The notes below the pieces were generated by a model. The model saw nothing but the letters and a program-made list of their open reading frames with translations, did not search any database and had not been told where the DNA came from. A stretch of DNA of 64,000 bases from Heterotrichella gracilis (Eukaryota; Sar; Xanthophyceae; Tribonematales; Xanthonemataceae): assembly GCA_032358255.1 (NCBI GenBank), contig JAULBX010014870.1, positions 29,992-93,991 of the forward strand, read 5' to 3'. Both the position numbers and the translations under genes were made by a program. This document shows, piece after piece, positions 3,481-56,500 of the stretch (within the stretch, counting starts at the first letter, position 1; every line of letters begins with the position of its first letter).

Positions 3481-6374
3481 ATGCAAGATGGCCAGGAGGC
3501 AAGTGGGCAGGAAGCCTCAAGGGCACCCAAAAGGAGGTGTCAGTTCTACCTGGAACACAAGAAAAGGACGTGCAAGTTTGAGGCAGGGCAGGGCACCGAC
3601 TACTGTGGTAACCACCTCTTCCTGGCTACAAACACGGGGATCAAGCGCGTTCCTTGTCCAATAGACCCCAAACAGTGCGTTCCACATCCATGCACACTGT
3701 ATCACAACAACCGTAATGCCTGATTGTGCTTATTCTTGACAAGTTGAGCACTGCAGCACTTGCCAGTCAGTCTGCACCATACCTGCTGACAAGAATCCTC
3801 CTTCTGGTGCAGCCTTGTCATTGCCAGCGACCTAGACGAGCATATGACCAAGTGCCCAACTTTGTTGAGAGATAGGTCCAAACAGGTGAGGAATCTCCCT
3901 TGCATTGCCGTGTTCTTCATGAACGAATGAAACACAAAGTTTCTTCCACGCAGGTTGCCTAACGTAGCCCGCTTCATACACATCTGCCCACTGCTGCAGG
4001 AACAGTCATTCTGTACAATAGATGTGAACGCTGGGCCCGGTCCAGCTGTTGATTTGGCAAGCATGTCCAACACTCCTGCTGCTGATCGACCTGCCGGCAT
4101 TGGAGCTGTTCGCGTGGCTTTTGCTCAGCAACTAGGGGAGGATGGGCTGAATAGGCTGATTACCCGGGTTTCCAAGGCATATGAGGAGGTGGGGCGCATG
4201 TTCAGCTTTGCTGTGCATGACTGACCTACCAATGCATTTGCGGGACACGCACATACAATGTGCTTGAGCACTGGCAATATTTGCTCAAGCTCAACAAGCA
4301 GCCTAGTCGCACATGGAAACTGTTTGTGTTCAGTGTATTTATTGCCGTTCCCCTGATACGATCATACCGTGTACCTACAGGTGTGCACTGACACTGAGAG
4401 CATGCGAGAGATAATGCCTGAGGAGTGCAAACCTCACATGAAGGTTGACGGCTTGAAGCCCTTTCAAGAGAAGCACGCTGTGCAGCAGGCCTCGATATTG
4501 GGCAACATGCAGCTGAGCGGCCTCCTGCAGGTGAGGGCTGCAATTCAAAAGGTTGGGGCGCTCCAGCCCTCTACAGGTGCACTGCGCCTGAAACCATGCT
4601 TTGGGTGACCTGCAACCACCACATTTGCGACAGCGGGCCTGCATTATGCTGTTTCATGAGTCAGTATTCATTGTATTCAGTATCTGCGAGGTACAGAATT
4701 GCATTTTCCATGCATATACTCTCTGCACCATCCCCGCTGAGTGGGCATTCCCCCCCACCCCCTTGCAGGACGCCGAGCGGCGGGTGTACATCGAGTTTGG
4801 GGCCGGGAAGGCATTCCTGTCCAGCATGCTGTCGTACAGCTTCAACGCCCAAGAACTGGTAGTGGTGGACCAAAAGGGTTTCCGTAACAAGGCGGATCGC
4901 GCACTGCGCCACATCAAGCTGCTGCAGCGCATTGTTGCAGACATCAAGGACTTTGACCCAAGTGGGCTGGACTGCCTGCAAGCCTTGGCGCGCCCCTGGG
5001 TGGCGATCGGCAAGCACCTGTGCGGCGCTGCTACGGACTTCACGCTGCGGTGCTGTGTCACATTCCAGTCCCCCAAAGGTTGGTCCATGCGGCATGTGCA
5101 TGGGGCATCCAATGGCATCGCCATCATGCTGCACCCCTTGCCGCTGTCGAACCATGCCTAGCATTTGAGCGGCGTTCTGGCTACACCTCTGCACAGAGAT
5201 GTATGAGGCTTCTTTGGACCCTGCGCAGGCATGGTGGACAATGGTCATGCTGGTGATGCTGGTGCGGGTGCCGGTGGGGGTGCGAATGCGGGTACGAGTA
5301 CAGTTGCAGGTGCTGGCCTTCAGGGCCTGGCTGTTGCCACCTGCTGCCACCACCGCTGCACCTGGCAGCACTACGTGGGCAAGCGGATGTTCAAGCAGCT
5401 GGGATTCAGCCCCGAGGAATTCGAGCTGGTCAGCTGGATGACAGGTATTGACCTCGCGGGGCAGCAACAGTGCACATGGGATTTATGGGCAGGCTTAAAA
5501 CTATCCATTGCTAGTGGTTCAGGAAAAATTGTGCCGCCTGCATACGGTGTTTGCACTGTATTTCTTCTATTAAATTATCTATCAAGTTATTGCATGTCAG
5601 CCTTAATGCCGGAGCCCCTGATTCTCTAGGTATCATGCATGATTCATGCACCATGATGCTGTGAGTTTGGGGCGGTGTCTCTGGCTTGTGTAGTTCTTTT
5701 ATCAACATGCCTTGCATGGGGCACATGATTGCATTTTCTGGCATGCCACCTAGCCACCGTGTGTGTCTTCAGGGTGGGCGCTGTGTGGGCATGGCACACC
5801 GGCAGGGCAGCAGGAGGAGGGTGGGGAGGACATCGATGGCGATGACGCTGGTGACGCATGCACAAGGTGCCGCAACGATGCTTCTCACAGCACTCGCCAT
5901 GCACAGCAGAATGGAGCACCGGAGAACATCACAGGAGGAGTGGAGTACACAGCGCAGAGTTGTATTGACCACAGCACGCCTCTAAATGAGGCAGCAGACA
6001 GTGAGGCAAACGCATCGCATAGCCAGGACGCTTCCCAGCCAAATGATGATGCACCAGAGAGCGCTTGTGGCCCAGCCAGTATCACACGTGCAGTGGGTGT
6101 GGATGGGCATAGCGGGCTGGCGTGCAGTGGGGCTGGGGTCTCCACTGATGCTGCGGCTGGCTGTGCGCAGGCGCCACAGGTGCCCCATCCCTCTGTGTGG
6201 ATACCCAGGCAGCGCCGCATCCAGATAGGGCAGCAGTGCAAGTGGCTGATCGACTACGGGCGCCTGCGGTGGCTCCAGGAGCAGCAGTTTGACAGCCAGC
6301 TGACCATGTATGTTTCACCCCTGGTGACGGGGGAGAACCGCCTGCTGCTGGCCACACCCAAGGGCAGCAGCTGA
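3481..6374 (+). CDS. TRM13: tRNA 2'-O-methyltransferase TRM13
   Basis: Expected to 2'-O-methylate position 4 of the acceptor stem of certain tRNAs using S-adenosylmethionine. Seven exons, phase-checked: 3481-3698, 3828-3885, 4000-4188, 4381-4530, 4769-5078, 5229-5444, 5773-6374, giving 580 aa. The order matches the family. An N-terminal CCCH-type finger (CQFYLEHKKRTC...CGNH) is followed by a second Cys/His finger (CPIDPK...H..KC). The methyltransferase core comprises the SAM loop VYIEFGAGKAFLS, then DQKGFRNKADR, the IGKHLCGAATD motif, the CCHHRCTWQHYVG motif typical of TRM13, and the C-terminal CKWLIDYGRLRWL. The last exon begins with an acidic, low-complexity insertion of about 150 residues before the C-terminal motif; this looks lineage-specific. 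The exon 5 donor (AAAG|GTTGGT) is the weakest splice site. Confidence 0.92.
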
Positions 6375-15757: not shown

Positions 15758-18047
15758 AAGAGTAGCCAGGTATAAGACAGTGAGACAAAGCTGTGAGCCA
15801 TAACATGCCCTGAATATACGTACCTGCTGCGCCCCCTTTCTGCAAAGTTTGAGTGGGCTATCCCTAGCTTGTCAGCATCGTGTCATCCGCTGTCAAGGGT
15901 GAAGCTGGCGTAGTTTGCCCAGTGAAAGGTCAAGATATTCACCCAAACTCACAAGCCTGCATGACAAGGACAAAGTTGCTAGTTACTCTTGCTGCTGGCT
16001 GTGACTCTAGCCTAGGCAGTGCATGTATGGAACTCCATGGCCAAGAACGGGACAACCCCGGTACCAGGCTGGACGGCAACTGCAAATAGTCCAAGCTCAG
16101 AGATACGGTGTATGCTTAGGCACCTCGTTGCGGTAGATTCGCGCACGCAAATGCAAATCAGTGGTGGGCAGCTTGGGCCCTGTGGCGCCTCACCTGGCCA
16201 CCCCACACCCCGGTCGCAAGGGTTTCAGCAGCGCATCTTTAACCCACAAACGGCCAGGACGACTTTGGGCGGAGGTTGACCCCGCATGCGCTTGGAAATA
16301 GGTTGGGTTCCTTGTGTGTTACTATGGATACAATTGGCCCCGGGAAAATAGGAACAGTCAAGACCTCATCACGTGGGCACTTTGGTGACGGTGCAAGCGA
16401 AAGTGCGCAGACCAAACTTCACTAACGCAGTGTGCTCAAGTACTGGGAACTGGAGACGCGTTCTGCATGGCGTAGGGCAACAACCTGTGTTCGCCTTGCT
16501 TTTAAAACGTTTTAACGCCGCACACCTGCCAAAACAGCTGTTCGGCTCGAGGGGAGTGAGTCGACTCGCAACCAAAGTGACGGCGTATGCTTGCAGTCCG
16601 GCAGCTTAACCTTTGACACAACCAAACAAGCACACCTATCTACTCTTTTGACGGAAACACCGCAAAGTTCTGGCCGGCTTGTTATGTGGCCACTACTGAA
16701 AGCCTGCAGCCAAACTGCCCCAAGTGTGGATATATTACGTCATCTGGTACAGCAGGGGGAGGGCAATTACGTCGTCTGGTACAGGTGGATCTCACTGAGG
16801 GTTTTTAGGCCCCAGGCAAGGGTCAGGGGTTCCTGCCAGGCAAGTCATTTTGAACACGTATGGCTCCTAACGTCGCCCTCCCCAACTTCCTTAGAGGTTG
16901 GATAAGCGTTGTGACTAGATAGGGGAGACTAGGTAGCAATGCTAGGTGGGGAGGCCCCGCCCAGTTTGGGGTCAGAAGTGGTGTGCACAGCGGTGCCCGC
17001 GGTGCCAGCGGTGCTTGGCAAGTAGCTGTGTAGCTTCGACTGCGGAGTTTGGGTTTCGTCTTCCGTTACCGCAGTGTGAAAGTTGGCACGTTTCACGACC
17101 AGATGCCATCTAAGATGGGCGGGGAGGGGGGTGTGGGGGGGGGTGAGGCGTAGCCGGGGGGTCCCCCCATCTTCGTACCTCGTCGACAGTCAGTTGGGTA
17201 GATCTGTGCGGTGGCAAACTAGCTTACGGCGAACTAGCTTACGGCTATAAATACTCTTTCGTTCCGCAGAAGTATCAGCGTTGGAAGGTTTCAAGCTTTG
17301 AAACATGCGTTTGATGTGAACCGTCCGTGTGCACGTGTTCCGACCTGTTTGGCATCGCATGCCATGGGCGGGGAGGGGTGTGTGTGGGCGGGGTGAGGCG
17401 TAGCCGGGGCCCACCCCACTGTACTGTATGTAAGGTTCGAACGATTTGCCAACGCTTCAACGTTGAACGTTTGCCAACGAGCAAGCTTTAAAGCAAGCTT
17501 CAAGGTTGGCGGCAAAAGTGGCTCCACGCTGGCTCCACGTTGGCAGTACATTTGGGAAACCCTCGTTGAGAGAAACCCTTCGGGAAGAAAGCGCGGGAAG
17601 TCCACAGACATTTCTCTATATGCACAAGCACAACTCCCGTAGGGCTGGAAGTTGGGGACAAACCCACTTGCTTTCCCACTTGAAATGACCACCACCACTT
17701 GGCTAAGCTTGTCGAGTCGACATAGGGTACTGACGAGGTCTGACAAACTTGGGGGTGAACTGTTACAGCGTGTCAATTCTGGAGGGGGAAACAGTATGAT
17801 GCCAATTATACCTTGCCGGACCTTCCAGCGTGATTTGGGCTTGCAATCTTTGGTGCAAAGTCATGACCAGCGTAAGCAGCCCATTAAATTCTGGCGTCAA
17901 GATGACAACAACGCAGCACTGGTGTCACAAATGCAAGCGGCAGGCGCAGCCCATAGGAAACAGTGCTCCACTGTGACAGCCAACAAAAACGTAGTGCAGC
18001 ACATGCAGCTGCTCATTTTGTAGGTTCTAATGATCACTATCTGGTGT
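15758..18047. other. Intergenic region with G-rich repeats
   Basis: About 2.3 kb between the kinase 5' end and the 3' end of the EH-domain gene. It contains no recognisable gene. Several open frames (16373-16609, 17291-17776 on the minus strand) have no coding character I can defend. It carries two related G-rich tracts near 17117 and 17370 and a short direct repeat (CTAGCTTACGGC twice at about 17219-17246). The right part holds the 3' UTR of the EH gene; an antisense TGTAA lies near 17763. Confidence 0.4.
17117..17415. repeat. Pair of G-rich direct repeats
   Basis: 17117-17168 and about 17366-17412 share GGGCGGGGAGGGG, GTGTG, and GGTGAGGCGTAGCCGGGG followed by a C-rich stretch. The copies are about 250 bp apart in the same orientation. 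They could be the ends of a decayed mobile element or a local duplication; no flanking target-site duplication was found. Confidence 0.5.
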
Positions 18048-18740
18048 TCATGATGCAGATCCTTCATGCAATGCAATCTCCATGTCACCCGGGGTCAGCC
18101 GCTTCTGGCGGCGCAGTGTCACGTCCAAGGGCTTCTGGAAGAGTGGCACTGTGATTGGGCCCGTGCGGATGGTTGGAATTGCGCCTGTGTAGTTCATCAT
18201 GTCCACGATGGGTAGATATGCCCAGGCCAGCAGCGACAGCTTCTTCTCCTTGGCCTTCCAGTGCTTCACCTCCAGGAACAGCACCGAGTCTGCACAGGGA
18301 CACACGCACGCAACAATCAGCCTATGCCCCGATAGGTAGAGAGTACTGGAATTTCACTCAAGTCAATCGGCATAAAATGCTCACCGCACTTTGTGAGAAT
18401 TACAACTCCCAAGCGGTTCCCACTCCCAGGGAGGCAGGGAAGAGCAACACGCACCCACTTGCAAAGATTGAGTAAAACCCTAAACCCTAACCCATGCGCA
18501 TGCTGCTGGTGTGGCAGTGTACCTCGAGCTATGCCAGCGGCAGGCGTCCGGAACTTGGTGAACTGGTCCGTAAACAGGATGGTGCCCGTGTTGCGGTTGA
18601 AGCTGCCAGGTGGCGTGTCCTGAGGGGGCTCCACCAGGGAGCCAGTCTTGGACTTGAGTGTGAGGATGACAAACGGCCGGTCCAGTGGCTTCCTGTAGCC
18701 GGTGGAGCAGCTCTTGACCTCAATGGCAAGGTACTTCCAG
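18048..18740 (-). other. AIDA-type C2 domain (C-terminus of the EH protein)
   Basis: Encoded by two exons, about 18740-18523 and 18292-18048. The recognisable features are FVILTLKSKTG, a Q-D-T-P loop, TGTILFTDQF, and LFLEVKHWKAKEKK followed by GPITVPLFQKPLD. The F/L-E-x-K-H-[WY]-K-x-K pattern followed by GPI...LF/Y-KKP is what I know from the membrane-binding C2 domain of axin-interactor AIDA (Aida_C2). Assigned by eye; a profile search is needed for certainty. Confidence 0.6.
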
Positions 18741-21700
18741 TCTGTGGTGGAGGAGGAAGGGAAGGGGGGGTGTCTTGGCAGTGCGCAGCAGTAACAGGGG
18801 TTGCAGGTTTGCAGGAGCGTGAAGATGTCATTTTTGACAATTTAATGCTACGGCCGGCTAGGAAACCAAAGCATCGCGATTGAGGTTGTGTTAAACAATG
18901 CACAACCACAAAGAAACGCTTTGCTGCTGGTGGCTTACCTTGCATGCTAGGGTTCTGCGACGTGCCCGTTACCCCTTGTGTGTCCTGGCCGTTACCCCGC
19001 GCCAGGCCTTGCGACTCCAGCCAGTCATATGCTTTGACTAGGTCAATGCCATTGGCCTCCAGTGCTTGCTGCACATGCCACACAACATCACTTGTAAGTC
19101 TGCTACATGGCTATATTTGGACAGCAACGCATGGTGGATGCCTACATGACTCATGTGTTGTCTGCTTGCAATCCGCCCTGCGTCACCACTACATATCATG
19201 CCGCAGACCTCTTAAGCAATCCAACCACAGCAGCGCTACAGGTCCCACGACACATGGCCACCAAGCACACTTGTAATCGCCAAGCCCCGTGTGCCTCGTC
19301 CTGTGCAACAGTAACTGCTTGCTGCGTGTATCAAGTGACACTGCAAGACCACCCGCAACTCAGTAACACCATGCATGCCACCTACCTTGGCCAGATCCTC
19401 AGATATGCCCAGCAGCTGCAGCTCGCGAATGGCCGACTCCAGCTCAGCCGTTTCCAGCGAGGGCATGGCCAGCCTGGCGCCGCTTGCTGACACGATCACC
19501 ACCCCCTCTGGTATGTCGCCGATGAGGTAGCGCGCATCCTCCCGCGTCAGGCAGGGCGGCAGGGGCACCGCCTTGGTGGCGTGGCGCAGCAGGCAGATGA
19601 ACACAGCAAGCTCCTGCGGCACCAGATAAAACAGAATTGGTGTAAGAACATTATTGTTTATATCATTATTGATGGTTTTTGTGTGTAACACATGATAAAA
19701 TGACAGCATGCAATGTATTCCATTTCATTCAATACAGTATTTAGACAAATCACTTATAGTTAGTTAAAAAGGTGCGCTGCAATGTGCCAGACGGCGCTTA
19801 TACTATCAAGCTTGTGGGCAGGAACGTGGTGTGCATGTTCCTGGCCAGGGTGTGGCCATGCAACAAGTGCCGCTCCATGTCCATTGAGTTAGCTAGTGCC
19901 CTCTCATTTGAAATACGCAGCCATGGTAGGGTGACAACGGGTACATGACACCCCCCGGAGTGGTAAGCATCTTCTCTGAGATGATGCGGGGGCAGTTACC
20001 CCTCCTCAGACTCCTTAACCCATACACACTCGTGCCACCACTGGCAACGCCGTCATGGAAACCTGACTACGGGAATGTGCCTAAGTGAGGGTTGACACAT
20101 GTGGCTGAATAGTGGGCCTACAGCCTAGGCACTTACGCAGCACACACATACACCCACCTCCTGGTTGAGCAGCTCATCCTGGTCTATGTCACTGAGGGCA
20201 AACAGGTGGTCTTGCACAGGCAGCGACACGGCCTCAGCGCACAGCTGGCGGGCAAATGGCTTGGCCACGCCCCCGCTCAAATTGTAGCCCTGCACAGGAT
20301 GAGGCACATGTGTGGATGGGGTCCACCTTGTAGGTGCGCTGGGTGGCTGTGAAAATTTGCAAGCACATGCGTTGCAATGTCGCACACATGTATAAGGCAT
20401 GCAGGAAGAAAAAACCCTTCCTCCTGGAGGAAAGCCATGCTGATGCCACAAGGAAACATTTAGCACCATGTGCAGGAAAGGAGGGCTCAGGCACAGCTGC
20501 CATGTGTGCCGCAGGGTCTGGGCTCGCACCTTGCTGATGTACACTGCGCTGATGTCCCGCCGGTCCTTGGGCGACAGAGGGCTGAATACGGTGGTGTCTG
20601 CAGCAACACACAAGTAAGCTCAGTTGCCCTGGCCCCCACAATCCCACCCGGTCATTGAGAGATAGGTATACGGTGCGCTATAGAATTTGAACAAGGTGTG
20701 CCAGAGCTGGGTATGGCACCCTGTGCAAGGGTGCAACCTGCCAATCTGACGGCACCACATGAATAAAATAAACTGAACAATCCATCCTTGCAACCGTATA
20801 GCTGGTGGTCACAATTGCACTGTGCGGTGCTGTCAAGATCTGGTTCACAAGGACAATGCCACTGCCAATGGAATACAGTGTCAAACACATGGTAGGGACA
20901 CGCAAAGCAACCACCAGTCCTTAATCTCCATTACGCAGTCCCTACTTCAACCAATGGCCTCGTATGCATGTGGTCATAAAGAAAAATCAAGCCAAATACA
21001 TGGGAACCGCACCGATGGTCAGCTCCACCCTGGGCTCGGTGATTGGGTCCGTCAGCTGCACAGGCGCAGCGCCATTGGCCTCCACGCCACTGTCCATCTC
21101 CGGGGAGCCCATGGCTGCGATCGCCGCGCCACCCCGGGTCGCATCCAATGGCTGCGCTTCCGGTGCGCCTGGAGCACCGGCATCAAAGCTGGTCCATCCA
21201 GGTGGTGAGGATGGCTGTGGCGCAGCTGCAGTGGGCGAAGCGCCCTGCGCACCAGCCGCTGTCGCCGCGCCAACAACCCCCACCACTGCACCCGCGGCTA
21301 CAGCATCCCTGGTGGAGAAGCCATTTGAGGCAGCAGGGGTAGCCTCCTCGCCCTCAGCAAACGATGTCCATCCTGGTTGCACCTCCGGCTCGGTCTGCTG
21401 GCTGTTGAATTTTTCCAGTGCAGCGTCCAGCAGCGCGTCATCGTCATCGCCAGTCCCCTCGCCCAGGTGCATGGATGCGCGCTCTGCCGACTGCCGCCGC
21501 CCCTCAGCCTGTGCGTCCACCCATGCTGTGGTTGCGGCTGTGACAGGCATGCTGACCTCCTCGCCCTCTAGCTCGACCGGCTCTGCACCCTCCTCCTCCC
21601 CAAATCCAGCCCAGCCGCGCGAATCTGCCACTGCTGCATCAGGAACCGCAGCTGAGGCAGCTGAGGCGTCACCAAATGCATAGGAACCCTCGTCCTCGTA

Positions 21701-24700
21701 CTGGGCAATGAACACTTTAGCTACATCCTCCTCTGCCTGTGGCGCTTCTGCAACACCTGGCAGTGCTGATTCCTCTGCCGGCGGCTCAGGTTGGTACTCA
21801 GGTGCCGCCTCCACAGCCACTTCCTCTGCCGCTGCCAGATCAGTACCAGGCTCCTCTTCCTGTGCAGGAAATGACAAATTTGCACTCAATTTGGGTGGGT
21901 TGCAGATAGCATATGCATGCATACCACAGTGCATGCACACAGGATGTGAAGTTACATGCATTCCAGTAATACAGCCAAATCAGCATGCATGCAGTAATGC
22001 AGTGTCCCTTGTGCTTTGGGGGGCACTCACTTGCACCGGGGCTGGTGCGATGACATCATCCTCGTCAGCAACGGCAGCATCCTCTGCAGCGATGACCTCA
22101 TATTCATCAGCTGCATCGGCTGCATCTTGGGCCACCGGTGCAGGCGCAAGCTCCACCTCTGCCTCTGCTTCAGGCTCAGCCTCATCCCCCGCTGCATCCA
22201 AAGCAGGCTCCTCGGCATGGAGAGCCCTGTCAGCCTCAACACCTGCCGCGCCCACCACGTTTGCACTGGCTGGAACCTCCGCAAATGCAGCTGGCTCTGC
22301 AGCAGGCACCGCTTCCTGGGCAGCAGTAGTGTCAGCTGGGAGGTCATCGGGGACGCCCTTTGCAGCGCTGCCGCCTGCCAGCGCCGCTATACCAGTACCA
22401 ACCGCCGCTGCACCAGTGCCAACCGCCGCTGCCAACGCAGCCAGGGAGCCGACGCCAAACCCGCCCTTGCTCTGCCCCTCATCTTGGTCAGGCTCCGCGA
22501 AAGAGGTCCATTCTGCAGGCGCTGCAACTGGCTCAGGCTCGGGCGCCGGCTCAGCGAATGTGGTCCAGTGGGTGGTTGCTGTGTCCTCTGGAGGCTGGAT
22601 GGCGGATGGCGCTTCCTCTGGCTCTGAAAAGGTGGTCCACGCAGCAGCGGTGCCAACCACTGCCGCAGCCCCAACAGCCGCCACAGTCCCCACAGCGGCC
22701 CCAGTGGCAGCAACTGCCCCCACAGCCACAGCCCCCGCCGCAGCAACTGCAGCGGTGCTAGCCACTGAGTGCCCCTCCTTGGCGTCCTCCGCAGAGGCTG
22801 CATCGCCAAACTCCGAAGCCACTGGGGTGGGGAATGGTGCATTGGTGACTTCTTCTGATTCCACATTGCTGTCCTGCGCGCCGGCAATGGGCGCTGAAGC
22901 TGCAGCTGCTGGTGACTCATTGCTGAAGGTGGTCCACGTCGGCTGTACAGGTGGGGTATCCTGTACCTCGCTGTAATCTGCAGAGGGTGGCGCATCCTCC
23001 ACAGGCTCCTCATCCTCCACCACATGCTCCTCCAAGTGATCCTCGGGCACAGCTGATGCAGCTGCCAGGACTGCCGCTGGCCCCTCGTTGAAAGTGGTCC
23101 ACGCTGACTGGGTGGGTGGCTCATCAGGTGGGGATGGCGTGTCTGCCACCACCTCCCGGGGTGCGGCCACAGCATCAGCTGCAGGGACTGTGGGCACAAT
23201 GGTTGTTGCAGCAGCATCCTCCGCCGGTTCCTGCGCACTGCCGCTGTCTGCCACCACCTCGCCGCCACCATCCTCATCCCCAGCATCGTCACCATCCTGC
23301 AATGGGCCAGCAATGGCACTCAGCATGCTTGCACCTTGGCGTAGGCATGCACCCCGTCCACAAATCCGCCAGTGCAGACTGCCAGATGCACAGCCATGCA
23401 CAGTCACTGACCCAGCACACCGCACACCGCATGCAAATCCGCCAGCGAGCGCATAACGTGCCGCATTGACAATTCCACCGCCCCGGCCCTGCTCCTACCC
23501 TCCGCACCCACCCCTTTCCCCCCACGCGCACCTGCATTTCCTCCAGCTGCGCCTGCACCACCAGCAGCTGCTCCACCTGCGCCTGCACCGCAGCCAGCGA
23601 CCCGGCCCTGTCGCGGTACTTACGGCTGCTGGACAGCAGGGTCTGCAGCCGCGCCAGCTCAGCGCTCACATTCTTGGCAAGCACCTGCAGCAGCAAGAGG
23701 CCAGCGCAGATGGTTTAGGGTTTGAACACGCTGACACGTGGCACCCGGCATCGCCATGCTTTGGTGAACATGAGGTCTATACGGCAAGGGTGGCGGAGGG
23801 AAAGAGTGGCCAGCAGATACATGGCACTTGCCACTAATGGTGGTATTACCATGCATTTGTAAATTGTGATGGTGGCATGACGATGGCGTTATGCAAAACC
23901 ACTAGCCAATCATCTACATGCGGTCCGTCATGCTGGACACACACAGCGCCATGTCTCCTTCTGCACAACCGCATGGCTCAACTAAGGGTAATCAGCCTCA
24001 CTTCGACTTCCTCCTCCCCTAGCTCATCATCTCCCTCCCCACCCTGCAGCACTGCCGCCGCATCCGACAGCACAGCACCAGCCTCCGGTACAGAAGGCAA
24101 AGCAGCTGGCGCCGGCTCCTCCACAGCTGGTGCGGAGAACAGGTCCTCAGGGAGCGGCGAATCAAACCGCACGCCTGAGGCCTGCTTCACCAGCACTGGC
24201 GCTGAAGCCTCCTCTGGCGCTGGGGGCTCCACAGCAGCGGGTTCTGGCGATGGAACTTCAACCTGGGTCTGCTCTTTGTCACCAGCTGCTGCCACCACAG
24301 CAGCAGTTGTAGCTATTGTTGCCGCAGCTGCGACCGGAACGGCAGCAGGCTTGTCCCCAGAGAACGACACCCAAGATGCGCCGCTCTGCTGTGCAGGGGC
24401 GGGTGCTGTCCATGGGTTATCAGCTGCAGCTGGAGCCACGGCCGCAGGCACAGGCTGAGTAGGAAACTGTTCCCAGGTAGCCCCGCCAGCAGCCACGGCC
24501 CCGCCCATTGCCGCCGCCGCGGCCAGGGTTGCTGCCCCGCCAGATGACTGGCTGTGCAAGGAGCCCTGCTTCTGCAGCGAGCCCTGCGTTTGCAGGCCAG
24601 TGGGGGTGGTGACGCTGTCCGCCATGCTTGACGTGCGGGAGTGGCGCGAGGGCGGGATGCCCATAGCGCTGGTCATGCCCTCCGCCAGCGCATCATAGGG

Positions 24701-26216
24701 CTGGCGGTGCACGTATGAGGCGGACGCAGAGCCGGTGGGGGAGGTGGGCTGACTCTGGGTCTGCTGGAACTGAGTCCATGTGGAGGGGGCTGGAGGAGGC
24801 GCAGCCGCGGGTGGGGCAATGGGTGGGGCTGGTACAGGGGCGGGGCCGCTGCTGAAGCTGGGTGGCGCGGCGCGTGCCACCGCTGTGGCCGCTGCAGCAG
24901 CAACAGCTGGCGCGGCGGATTCTGAGAGGGTTCTTGAGCGGGACACGCCTTTAGGCGCTGCTGCCCTGGCAGTGTAGATGAGGTCCATGCACACGAAGAA
25001 CTGCTCCCGGGATATGAAGGAGGGGTTCCTGCCAGCTGCAAACAACACTATCTCCTCCAGCACTGACTCCTGCAGGCACAGCAGATTACGATGGGTTAAC
25101 CCTCTCACTCCCAGACGAAACCCTAGCGACCGCCGAAATTGCACGCTATTGAGGCCTCCCAGCCGGTCGGGTTTGCCTATACCTAGATGAGTTTGGGGAG
25201 AGCTCTACTCACCGGCAGGGCGCCCCGCTGAAAGAAAGCTTTTGCGTCTGTAGCAGGAATCTGGGGCCGCCCTGTGTTGCCGGTGAGCTTGTTCCAAAAC
25301 ACCACGTACTTCCCGTTGTCCTCGTCTGAGATGCGCGCCAGCACACTCATGGGCATCTGCATACACGCACAGTGGTCAGTTACAGGCGGTTGGGTGGGTT
25401 GTTCCAATGCTGGGTCCGCAGGTGAACAAGCAGTCAAGGCTGCCAGGCGGTAGTGAGTGGTACCTTATAGGTGTCGATGATGTTGAGCACAGCGTCAAGC
25501 TGCGGGTCAACCACAGCCATGGGGGCAGGGGCTGGGGCAGTCGTCAGTGGTTTGCCTAGCTTGCCTTGCAGTACTAGCTCCAAGGACTGCCTGAATTGGG
25601 CCTGTAGCACACAGGACAGAGTGACATACAAGCACACACCCAAGCGGACTGATAAAGGGTAGGACTCAACGAGGATGGCTCACCTTGGTCCTGATGTTCC
25701 CTTCAGGTGCCACTGACATCTTCCAAATGGCACTGAGCATGGACTTTGGAAGCCCAGAAGCGCTGTAGAACACTTTTGCATCACCCCCGCCAACACAACC
25801 ATCCCCATCTGTGACAAGGGTAGCAAAGCAGTCACAACGAGCACTGATGTACTGCATTTAGGGGCTTTTGAGGAAAGGTACGCTCCTCGGGTGGAGGTTC
25901 CGTATTTCAAACACCAGTGAGGGTGGGTAGCAGTTCCACATTCAAACAGCATTGGGGGTGGCAAGACTGGTTGCAGTCAACCAAACCTTCAGAGCTTCTG
26001 CTGCCAGATGTAACCAATTCTTACCTCTGTCGGCCTCGTGGAACGCATTGGTCAGGGCGATAGGGTCCTCCAAGCACTTGTAAATGTTGTCCACTGCAAG
26101 CATGGCCAAGTCAGTCACACACCCTTGACCACACTGGGGTTCTCGACCTAGCTCAGCTATCAGCTAACCACACCCAGGTCTGGTTTGCACTCACCAGACC
26201 AGTCAAACGCCGCCAT
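18048..26216 (-). CDS. Giant EH-domain endocytic-adaptor-like protein with WxxF motifs and AIDA-type C2
   Basis: About 1,630 aa from about 15 exons; start MAAFDWS at 26216, stop at 18048-18050. In order: EH1 (exons at about 26093-25465; DRDGDGCVGGGDAKVFY... with LPKSMLSAIWK), a degenerate EH2 (25355-25000), and a Pro/Ala-rich exon (about 25074-23994) with WTQF, WEQF and WVSF. A coiled coil follows (23690-23532; NVSAELARLQTLLSS...), then acidic Ala-rich exons (23298-22032 and 21860-21010) with eight more W-x-x-F motifs. Next come EH3 (20609-19560; LSPKDRRDISAVYISKV, LSDIDQDELLNQE), a short helical UBA-like segment (ANGIDLVKAYDWLESQG), and a C-terminal C2 domain (18740-18048; FVILTLKSKTG..., LFLEVKHWKAKEKK, GPITVPLFQKPLD) that resembles AIDA. 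EH domains bind NPF peptides; W-x-x-F motifs bind AP-2-type appendage domains; C2 domains bind membrane. Together they suggest a clathrin-coat scaffold of the Eps15/Ede1/Pan1 kind. The join at 21010/20609 keeps phase. Confidence 0.8.
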
Positions 26217-52518: not shown

Positions 52519-53559
52519 TCAGCAGCACAAGATGAGCAGCATATCGCTGATCGCGGCGTTTAAGCGCTGATTAGCAGCAGGACATTGCAACCTGCCTCCG
52601 TAATCTGCTCTTGGCTTTTGAATTTTCTGGTATTTGTTGCATTGCAGCCAGGTTTGGTGTGTAGAGCACATAGGTGCTCAGACTTTTTTGCCGCTTCCTT
52701 TCTCTACACTGTTCACGCATCGTTGTATTTTGTCAAGTTTCTCTCCATGTGATGTTCAAGGCTTGTCAGCATGCCAGTACTGTGACGTAAGTAGCGCACA
52801 TCCGTAGTGGGCTTGGCTTTCCTCCGCCGTATGCTGAAGTGAGAAAAATTGTAACTCTGTAACCCATGCATGCCTCTTCAGGAACGGCATGCCCCCGAAT
52901 GCGTGCGATGCCAGGGAGGTCAAAGCGACAAAGTCTGTCGTGCGCTGGCACTGTTAAAGGTGTCATCAATCTGTGTGTCTTCGAGGCGCAACATATCCTC
53001 GCAGAGGGAACTTGGGTGGGCACCTGGCTGTCGGATATGCATGCATTAGGTCCACATATGCATGCATTCGTCAGTGCTGACTCGGATAACAAACGTCCCT
53101 AAAGTTTTCCCCGCAGCTCACGCTGGTTGCTTGACTGTTGTTGGGATATCTTATCACTGACGAGCATATTTAACCTCACAAGTGTTTGTCTCACAAGCAA
53201 ACTCAAACGTCTTGTTAGATTGTGAACTCCGATAGTTGTGCACATGTTCCGGAAGTGGAATGAAGGTCTATTGCGCCGCTTGCGCACATCACATATTGGC
53301 GTTTCTTTACGGCGCATATATTGGATTTGAAGGGGTGTGAACCTGCGAGCCCAGGCAGCCAGCAGCTGTGCACTCAGGGGTTACCTGCTCTCAGGGGCCA
53401 TGCACTGGTTCAAGAGTCACTGACTCTTTGTCCACCAAGATATGTGTCTTTTTATATTGATACTGAACAACAGCTGCAGTTTCCCTCACAAAGCGTAATC
53501 TTCAGACACAGATACCACCAGCTGCAGCCAAATCTTGTGAATCTTGACACTTCACTGCG
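52519..53559. other. Intergenic region, aminotransferase to MCC-alpha
   Basis: About 1 kb between same-strand genes. Two TGTAA motifs near 52850-52862 are plausible poly(A) signals for the aminotransferase. The right part is presumably the MCC-alpha promoter. No gene is supported. Confidence 0.45.
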
Positions 53560-56500
53560 ATGCAGCACTGCACTACAGCAGTTGCCTGGTCACTGTGGCG
53601 GGCTGCAGCACCTCTACAGCCACACACTGCAAGCTTCTCAACCAGCTCCCTTGCAATCAGCAAGCTTTTGGTTGCCAACAGGGGCGAAATCGCCTGCAGA
53701 GTCTTGGCAACGGCAAAAAGGCTGGGCATCCCCACAGTAGCAGTGTACAGTGAACCAGATGCCACAGCAAAGCACGTGCAGCTAGCAGACCAAGCCTTCT
53801 GTATAGGGCCAGCAGCAGCAAGGGAGAGCTATCTCAACGTTCCTAAAATCATTCAGGTGGCAAAAGCCAGTGGCGCTGCAGCCATACACCCAGGCTATGG
53901 GTTCCTCAGCGAAAATGCAACGTTTGCCAGCACGTGTACTGACAACATGATCACCTTTGTGGGACCTACTTCGCACGCCATCCAAGCAATGGGTAAGCAT
54001 GGATGGCACCCGCGTGGTGATTCACCTCACAACAGTTCACAGTATGGTAGTATCAAACCAACCACTCCACGGGGTTATTCACGCGCACCACATAATTGTT
54101 GCACAAATTTCGTTGTTGAGAAGCTTTGCATGCCATGCATAAGTGCGCTGTCAGCTGGGTCATGTTGATGGTGCGGCATTCAGGTGACAAGAGTGAGGCA
54201 AAGACTCTGATGTCGGCAGCCAACGTGCCTGTGGTGCCGGGGTACCATGGGGAGGATCAAAGCGTTGAGAGGTATGTTGAAGAGTACGATTGACTGGCTG
54301 ACATACACACGGCACGACACATTGCTAATGGCTACCGCTGTGTGAGTTTTGCCCTTGTGGTGTCTGCTCAGGCTGCACACCTGTATACTGACTTGGCAAT
54401 GTCTGATTGCCAAATTTTGGGTTGTGATTGGGCAGCGCAAGCAAACAAGCATGGCACAAGGCAATGGTAGGATGGTATCATTCAGCCGCAATGTAAAACA
54501 CGCTCATGCTCCTCATCTGTGGCCTTGGAATAGTTTATTGGCATGTGACGTTGCTACCCCAGGTTGAAAGCCGAAGCTGCGCGCATCGGTACCCCCGTGC
54601 TTGTGAAAGCCACCAAGGGGGGTGGTGGCAAGGGCATGAAGCTGGTGACTGACCTGCGCCACCTGGAGGATGCAATCAGCTCCGCCAAGCGGGAGGCGGC
54701 GGCTTCATTTGGCGATGACCGGCTGCTGCTGGAGCGATACATCCAGAGGCCACGGCACATAGAGGTGCAGGTGCGTGTGAGCGGGGCTGGAAAAGGGATG
54801 AACCCCCTTGATGTGGTTCGCAAGTGCTTTGGGATGAGTACACGATGGAAATTCTGGGCATGGCTTTTGTCCCGCAAGCTTTACTTGTTGCAGCGCATGC
54901 ATAAGAATTATTGGGCAAGGATGAGCATTCTCCCATTATGATGCGCTGGCAATACCCTCCAAAAATATTTTGCAGCCTGGGACCATGCACGGTTCAACAA
55001 ATGTGCCATTTCCAACCCTGCCTAATGTGTAGCATGCCATATCGTGCTTCATGCAGATCATGGCGGACAAGCACGACAACGCTGTGTACCTGTTTGAGCG
55101 CGATTGCAGCGTGCAGAGGAGGCATCAAAAGGTGCGTGGCAGGACACCATCTGGAGACAGCCAGCTGGCAATGTGGCTGGCCACATAATTTGATGTAAAT
55201 GTCAAGGATGCTGGAATAGCTGGCAGGTTACACCGCTGATGACTGATCTTTAAGGTTGTTTTTGTCCACTGCTGCCAACATGACAAATGTCAACATATGA
55301 ATCTTGAGTGCATGTTGCTACTACATTTTGAACGATGCTCTGGCACTGACAATGCGCCCTCTGACTATCATCCTTTTCTTTCATTCAGATCATTGAGGAG
55401 GCCCCAGCCCCAGGGATCAGCGAGGGTTTCCGCCGAGGTATTGGCGAGGCTGCTGTGGCCGCTGCCCGTGCAGTTGGTTACGTGAACGCCGGCACTGTTG
55501 AGTTCATCATGGACACCGACACGGATGAGTACTTCTTCATGGAGATGAACACGCGGCTGCAGGTGAGAGCAGGGCTACATATCTAACATTTAAAGCTAAT
55601 TTAAACAATCAATTCAGGTAGAAAAATGGGTAATATCTTACAAGGCTTATTACAAGGCTTATAATTAACATACAGTGAGCAACATTCAGACTATGGCAGT
55701 TATTGAAGGGCTAATTTGGCTATACTGCTGGAATGCATGCAGATAGTAGATACTACAGCGCATGCACAACCCTGCTCTATCTCCTACCTACAGGGCTGGC
55801 TGCCGGATTGTGCCCGCACAGACCATGGTAAAACTTGATATTTCCCACTCTGTAGGTTGAGCACCCTGTGACTGAGGCCATCACGGGTCTGGACCTGGTT
55901 GAGCTGCAGCTGCGGGTGGCGGCAGGGGAGGAGCTGGCAATCAAACAGGAGGACCTGGAAATACAGGCAAGCCCAGTGCTATTGAGCGTAGCCTGCTTGC
56001 TGTACAATGCCCCATCAAATCCCTGACTCAGAAATGATGGTTCTTGCTCATCACCATCGTCATGTGCCACAATTTTCATCAGATTTGGCTATTATATCAC
56101 TACAGTAGTAGTGATGGTAGCCTGTGCCTTGTTCAGTGTGCCAAAATGTTCTTACTTGAAGAAGCCACTGTCCGCACAATGCCATCAAGAGCTCAGGAGA
56201 GCAGTCAATACGCATTTGCACATCTCACCCTGTGTCAAGCCATTTTGCCTCGTGCAGGGCCACTCCATTGAGGCGAGGTTGTATGCAGAGAGCCCTGAGC
56301 GAGACTTTCTGCCTGGCACGGGTGTGGTGCGGCGCTGGGTGCTGCCGCCGGGCGCTGTGGAGTTCACTCGGGGGGCGGTGCGGGTGGACAGTGGAGTGCA
56401 GGAAGGGGATGCGGTGCGGGCCACTACGCCAAACCCTAAAACTGAACCCTAGATCAACAGTCATAGATCCACGTTCATCATGGGTGCTTCATGGCCAACA

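Follow-up and report, generated by a model that had tools for sequence, protein, structure and literature searches.

A predicted algal EH-domain scaffold with a WxxF-rich linker and a C-terminal Aida_C2 domain, a candidate initiator of clathrin-coated pits

Results

The 64,000-nucleotide stretch of Heterotrichella gracilis DNA analysed here (the window) is part of contig C150 in a 68.5-Mb assembly of 903 contigs. On its minus strand, from 26216 to 18048, it carries what we model as one gene of 15 exons, with a coding sequence of 4851 nt and a product of 1616 residues. The model, which covers one gene in one genome, was assembled from reading frame, GT-AG splice sites and phase, using genomic sequence alone. 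All 14 introns are GT-AG, the exon phases are compatible, and the only stop codon is the terminal one. From N to C terminus the predicted protein comprises two EH domains (EH1 and EH2), an acidic, WxxF-rich, low-complexity linker of 1072 residues, a third EH domain (EH3), a UBA-like stretch and an Aida_C2 domain (Table 1). The gene is probably nuclear, and we think it probable that it encodes an EH scaffold of this full length.

Codon usage was scored for every exon and intron. The coding frame outscores the other two frames in 14 of the 15 exons, the exception being exon 1 (22 nt). Scores over all frames run from -0.08 to 0.63 bits per codon in exons and from -1.0 to 0.02 in introns, a contrast that is somewhat flattered because the background was trained on the same introns. 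A longer form of exon 11, with its acceptor near 20350, would add about 19 residues to EH3; it was rejected because an alignment with intersectin crosses that part of the domain gap-free.

The join between exons 9 and 10 links the N-terminal EH pair and linker to EH3 and the C2 domain. Exon 9 stops at 21013, one base into a codon, and exon 10 completes that codon from 20597 as GAC (Asp1278), across an intron of 415 nt. A phase 1-to-phase 1 junction of the two parts had been proposed in an earlier reading of the letters (the original prediction) and is confirmed here; its coordinates, about 21010 and 20609, were slightly off. Exon 10 scores 0.42 bits per codon in the coding frame versus -0.26 and -0.76 in the others, and the three frames of intron 9 score -0.64, -0.73 and -0.56. 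These scores support a single gene, as do the phase and the absence of any ATG from the open frame that leads into exon 10. The proposal that one gene fuses the EH pair, the WxxF scaffold, EH3 and the C2 domain thus holds as an in-phase GT-AG model backed by codon score, and a single transcript is what that model predicts.

The identity of the C-terminal domain is unambiguous. Residues 1460-1609 match the Aida_C2 profile of Pfam at E 1.1e-22 (80.6 bits, cut-off 25) when the whole protein is searched, and at E 1.9e-24 when the domain is searched alone; a match to this profile had been named beforehand as a test of the architecture, and the outcome is strongly positive. Its solved AIDA C2 relatives are 2qz5 (E 8e-7, the best) and 2qzq (E 1.8e-5). 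An NCBIfam search of the C-terminal 339 residues gave no match. Genome-wide, an exon-by-exon search of limited sensitivity found Aida_C2 at two places, which are exons 14 and 15 of this gene. The domain has a net charge of +8, and in the 2qz5 alignment its KHWKAKEKK aligns with KHYKPKKRF of AIDA. PKC-type C2 domains carry acidic calcium ligands in the third loop. The presence of a basic stretch at this place in both the algal domain and AIDA suggests calcium-independent binding of anionic lipid.

At the other end, EH1 and EH2 jointly reach 29.1 bits with PF12763, above its cut-off of 22, and singly they score 16.0 and 18.8 bits, both under it. Their best solved relatives are 6yeu for EH1 (E 9.8e-8) and 1qjt for EH2 (E 1.8e-4); the 6yeu sequence is also deposited as 6yig, the structure of AtEH1/Pan1 EH1.1. 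When EH3 was compared with the PDB at E up to 10, all ten matches were EH domains, the best being intersectin-1 (2kgr, E 1.2e-4), and the alignment includes the EF-hand loop DIDQDELLNQEE. Between EH3 and the C2 domain we also found a UBA-like stretch (residues 1401-1440) that the original prediction had overlooked. Its best solved match is 1wiv (named ubiquitin-specific protease 14; E 1.5e-4). Four PDB entries match up to E 10, and three are UBA domains, 1wiv and 2dak among them.

The linker (residues 206-1277) is 16% acidic and 3% basic, and it contains 13 tryptophans. All 11 WxxF motifs of the protein lie within it, whereas 5000 shuffles of the same stretch gave 0.26 on average and never more than 4. 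Six of them (at 639, 793, 817, 836, 1078 and 1159) fit WxxFx[DE], the consensus reported for ligands that the AP-2 alpha appendage binds at its sandwich subdomain (PMC5694535); a motif of this type is employed by NECAP 1 (PMC3794858). A coiled coil may follow the EH pair, where exon 7 looks helical and charged by eye. Exon 7 alone has no Pfam match, and the only coiled-coil-like Pfam match in the whole protein is Uso1_p115_C, at E 0.28.

A search of the genome with PF02883 gave a strong match on contig C123 (6.8e-31) and a weak one on C478 (0.005, below cut-off). At E up to 10 the same search also gave sub-cut-off matches in 3 of 14 control genomes, so the C478 match was accepted only after its exons had been joined and the piece checked against the PDB and Pfam. 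The joined piece, of 234 residues, scores 50.4 bits with PF02883 and 46.0 bits with PF02296, both above cut-off. Against the PDB it has seven matches at E 0.001 or better, every one of them AP-2 alpha (chains at E about 4e-23); one is 1w80, an AP-2 alpha entry with bound WxxF and FxDxF peptides (PMC10105704, PMC5694535). The predicted receptor of the linker's motifs is therefore encoded in the same genome. The absence of Alpha_adaptin_C (PF02296) from the genome search proved to be a false negative, since this platform domain appeared once the exons were joined. Neither the PF02296 search nor a search for the mu-homology domain (muHD) gave a match in any control, so the failure to find a muHD in the genome is uninformative.

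Table 1. Exons of the modelled gene, the intron at the disputed join, and related loci elsewhere in the genome. Exon and intron positions are those of the window.
Feature	Position	Strand	Description
Exon 1	26195..26216	-	MAAFDWS, with the start codon at 26216; least secure exon and the shortest; coding frame not best-scoring
Exon 2	26025..26093	-	First part of EH1; phases 1/1
Exon 3	25684..25808	-	EH1, most of EF-hand loop DRDGDGCVGGGD, presumed NPF-pocket tryptophan W59 (by eye)
Exon 4	25464..25601	-	EH1 end (to about 25542), EH2 start (from about 25505)
Exon 5	25213..25356	-	EH2
Exon 6	24002..25069	-	EH2 end (to about 24953), then linker; WxxF at residues 264, 365, 399
Exon 7	23532..23684	-	Charged, helical-looking, possible coiled coil (by eye)
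Exon 8	22031..23296	-	Acidic Ala/Pro-rich linker; WxxF at 639, 694, 793, 817, 836
Exon 9	21013..21859	-	Acidic linker; WxxF at 1078, 1159, 1217; donor phase 1
Intron 9	20598..21012	-	415 nt; disputed join; non-coding by codon score; no TGTAA
Exon 10	20530..20597	-	EH3 start (DTTVFSPLSPKDRRDISAVYISK)
Exon 11	20158..20289	-	EH3, second EF-hand loop DIDQDELLNQEE (completed in exon 12)
Exon 12	19386..19613	-	EH3 end; UBA-like stretch start (from about 19445)
Exon 13	18939..19068	-	UBA-like stretch end (to about 19009)
Exon 14	18523..18741	-	Aida_C2 first half
Exon 15	18048..18289	-	Aida_C2 second half, basic stretch LEVKHWKAKEKK, stop codon
L020	G000:C478:32153-35329		AP-2 alpha subunit; sandwich and platform ear behind Pro/Ala/Gly-rich stretch
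L019	G000:C123:128810-132151	-	Gamma-type adaptin ear (by eye)
L023	G000:C541:1-10000	-	EHD-type gene: EH exon (PF12763 E 0.018), then exons like EHD GTPase domain (by eye)

Other EH genes were sought by scanning the genome with PF12763, which gave five places at E up to 10. Four of these candidates were judged by eye: L014 belongs to the EHD-type protein of L023, L015 is EF-hand-like, L016 is calmodulin-like, and L017, which exceeds the cut-off only together with its neighbours, is a kinase with EF hands. The scan missed the intron-split EH domains of the window itself, so an absence of other EH genes cannot be read from it. When the genome was queried with the EH pair and with the C-terminal part of the protein, only the gene's own exons were returned (5 of 5 and 6 of 6 matches).

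Several further features were recorded. Downstream of the gene, two G-rich direct repeat units (17115-17159 and 17364-17409, about 250 nt apart) may belong to a small element that is mobile or repeated. On the plus strand of the window, open frames at 53548-54165 and 5754-6371 contain a biotin carboxylase N-terminal domain (PF00289, E 4.8e-45) and a terminal TRM13 tRNA methyltransferase domain (PF05206, E 4.4e-12), respectively. An Rfam search of the window gave no match at gathering score. Elsewhere, the genome has 43 exon-level matches to the chlorophyll a/b-binding family, one of which, at the locus L021, is a CP26; these matches point almost certainly to a green alga. Among the best 60 of its 310 matches, chains of 7pi0, 9is4 and 6kac, presumably from green algae, score 307-312 bits, and CP26 chains such as those of 5mdx and 3jcu, presumably from land plants, score more weakly at 132-136 bits.

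Discussion

These findings lead us to propose, with a probability of roughly 0.6, that the gene encodes a scaffold that initiates clathrin-coated pits from a single chain, with an EH/UBA cargo end, a linker that catches AP-2 and a C2 membrane anchor. EH initiators in animals, yeast and plants act early at the plasma membrane and pair with mu-homology proteins; their condensation has been reported but is debated (PMC11361644, PMC7615741). By analogy, the algal protein would act at the onset of pit formation. Its C2 domain would dock on anionic plasma-membrane lipid without calcium, and the linker, through as many as 11 WxxF motifs, could hook the AP-2 alpha appendage on its sandwich face and so cluster AP-2. 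This clustering might involve condensation, which has been reported for AtEH1, Ede1 and Eps15. EH1 may take NPF-bearing partners, and the UBA-like stretch may take ubiquitinated cargo. The original prediction had suggested that the protein could be an algal version of the scaffold that initiates clathrin pits. This putative role agrees with the EH pair, with the WxxF array of AP-2 type and with the presence of an AP-2 alpha ear in the genome. More tentatively, and with the odds against it, the initiation hub might have been fused into one chain in this green algal lineage, as an Eps15/Ede1-like cargo and adaptor scaffold whose own Aida_C2 anchor takes on the membrane task of the F-BAR muniscins (FCHo and Syp1, in opisthokonts) and of the TPLATE complex (in plants), AP-2 being held through the alpha-sandwich site alone.

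A number of observations weigh against the proposal of a clathrin initiator. Five of the 11 WxxF motifs lack an acidic residue at the consensus place. The 1616 residues contain no NPF and no DP[FW], the sole FxDxF match (residue 1520) is inside the C2 domain and outside the linker, and the two clathrin-box-type matches (1374 and 1540) both lie C-terminal of the linker; clathrin would therefore have to come via AP-2. EH3 has no Pfam match at E up to 10, and its similarity to EH1 and EH2 is at chance level (499 and 394 of 1000 shuffles reach the score). Of the three EH domains claimed originally, then, two pass in Pfam jointly, and the third is recognized against solved EH domains and not by Pfam. 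The presumed NPF-pocket tryptophan is apparently kept only in EH1 (W59, by eye), its place being taken by Phe in EH3 (from the alignment) and Val in EH2 (by eye); EH1 would thus be the domain that binds NPF. The counterpart of W59 in AtEH1 EH1.1, W49, is required for NPF binding (PMC8144573). The UBA-like stretch reaches only 19.0 bits with PF22562 UBA_7 (E 0.0013), below the cut-off of 27.

Nor did we find relatives. Protein searches returned 3835 candidates for the C-terminal 339 residues, with none at E 0.001; 5655 for the full protein with region 1278-1616 searched, with none at E 0.01; and 13 for the C2 domain alone, with none at E 0.01. Nothing, therefore, shows that selection keeps the architecture. 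Because these searches depend on shared 5-residue words and on however many algae the collection holds, uniqueness cannot be read from their outcome. Among the viral contigs scanned, a single stretch fitted a pattern, and none encoded a relative.

We considered three alternatives. In the first, the protein is a single chain that works on another membrane, either at the endosome or trans-Golgi with AP-1 or in autophagosome formation, with a C2 domain that reads phosphatidylinositol 3- or 4-phosphate (PI3P, PI4P) or a similar lipid. The genome does encode a gamma-type ear, assigned by eye. Animal AIDA is linked to endoplasmic reticulum-associated degradation with HRD1. The AtEH proteins act in autophagy too (PMC6853982). 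Against this, it is the alpha-appendage consensus that the six linker motifs fit (PMC5694535), and a Toxoplasma EH protein with WxxF binds an alpha-type ear (PMC10105704). We consider another membrane unlikely.

Less probable still is a role as the alga's counterpart of AtEH/Pan1 within a TPLATE/TSET complex, on which the protein would then depend; such a subunit is expected to be bound stably through TML. The best solved match of EH1 is AtEH1 EH1.1, and the AtEH proteins combine EH domains with a coiled coil and with long stretches of disorder (PMC7615741); but in the excerpts of the papers on AtEH1 and AtEH2 neither is described with a third EH domain, a UBA or an Aida_C2 domain (PMC7615741, PMC8144573).

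The least probable alternative is that two adjacent genes have been joined: an ordinary EH-EH-linker protein of the EH-EH-coiled coil (EEC) type, whose end would lie near 20987, and an EH3-UBA-C2 protein with its own start within intron 9 or exon 9. The two halves do bear domains from different families, and reading through exon 9 in frame reaches a stop 8 residues on. Only one of the 14 introns is longer than intron 9, whose donor, GTGCGG, belongs to the GTGCG class present at three of the 14 introns (itself counted) rather than to the GTRAG class found at seven. However, the open frame before exon 10 has no methionine and the next one, residue 1394, lies behind EH3; a second gene downstream would thus have to begin with a 5' exon in intron 9 or start in exon 9. 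Between 21300 and 20598 we found 11 phase-fitting ATG-to-GT pieces; none of the seven in intron 9 has a GTRAG donor, and the other four lie inside exon 9, two of them sharing its donor. A start within exon 9, at Met1245 or Met1250, may yield a second, shorter product. TGTAA is the usual chlorophyte poly(A) signal. Intron 9 has none, and one TGTAA starts 281 nt past the gene's stop, an argument that is weak because 11 of the 14 introns lack it.

A survey of endocytic proteins finds the EEC arrangement in all major eukaryote branches except Euglenozoa; it states that EEC proteins outside opisthokonts have no further globular domain and that it was within opisthokonts that Eps15 homologues acquired their ubiquitin-binding regions (PMC4824007). 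If it is real as modelled, the algal gene would contradict the first of these generalizations and perhaps also the second. It would, moreover, serve as a natural experiment on the components that an initiation scaffold requires, in which a single chain from a photosynthetic lineage bears the membrane anchor, the adaptor hooks and the cargo end; that chain may do work split elsewhere among several proteins. We predict that its WxxF array binds the alga's own alpha ear. A protein combining EH and Aida_C2 was not reported among the open-access literature matches listed, as judged by titles and the starts of abstracts; a survey of the C2 superfamily is said to have defined and named the AIDA family. 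The same arrangement may be common among green algae and may already show up in domain databases.

Among known systems, AIDA (axin interactor, dorsalization associated) shares the Aida_C2 domain with the algal protein, whose 1616 residues contain no other AIDA part (Pfam, E up to 1). AIDA proteins presumably carry an AIDA N-terminal domain; because no match to it appeared, we do not file the algal protein as an AIDA orthologue. Intersectin has a C2 domain of the PKC type. The C2 domain here comes from another family, and the SH3 repeats and DH-PH of intersectin have no Pfam match in the algal protein up to E 1. Each of the two has an EH pair and a C-terminal C2 domain (PMC4824007), and algal EH3 is closest to an EH domain of intersectin-1. 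In heterokont myosin XXXI, Aida_C2 is again the C-terminal tail of a large protein, but that protein is a motor rather than an EH scaffold and carries IQ, PH and ankyrin domains (PMC3942036); this was the only paper found under PF14186 and its names.

Like Eps15 and Ede1, the algal protein has N-terminal EH domains and a long linker with adaptor hooks. Near their C terminus those scaffolds have a ubiquitin-binding module, a UBA in the fungal branch and a UIM in the metazoan one (PMC4824007), for which the sub-threshold UBA-like stretch is a candidate counterpart. The algal protein differs in having one EH domain at the far end, hooks of the WxxF type with no DP[FW], and an added Aida_C2 domain. 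Of the EEC traits, the tandem N-terminal EH domains are seen with PF12763, 6yeu and 1qjt, and the AP-2 hooks of the linker by motif only; for want of DP[FW] we do not file the protein as Eps15 itself. With AtEH1/Pan1 and AtEH2/Pan1 of the TPLATE complex it shares the best solved match of EH1, long disordered regions and, as predicted here, membrane contact. The disordered region of AtEH1 seems to aid nucleation on the membrane (PMC7615741), and its EH domains bind phosphatidic acid (PMC8144573), whereas the algal protein has a dedicated C2 domain. Finally, Toxoplasma TgEps15L has two EH domains as well, and it is the WxxF of that protein that binds the alpha-type ear (PMC10105704).

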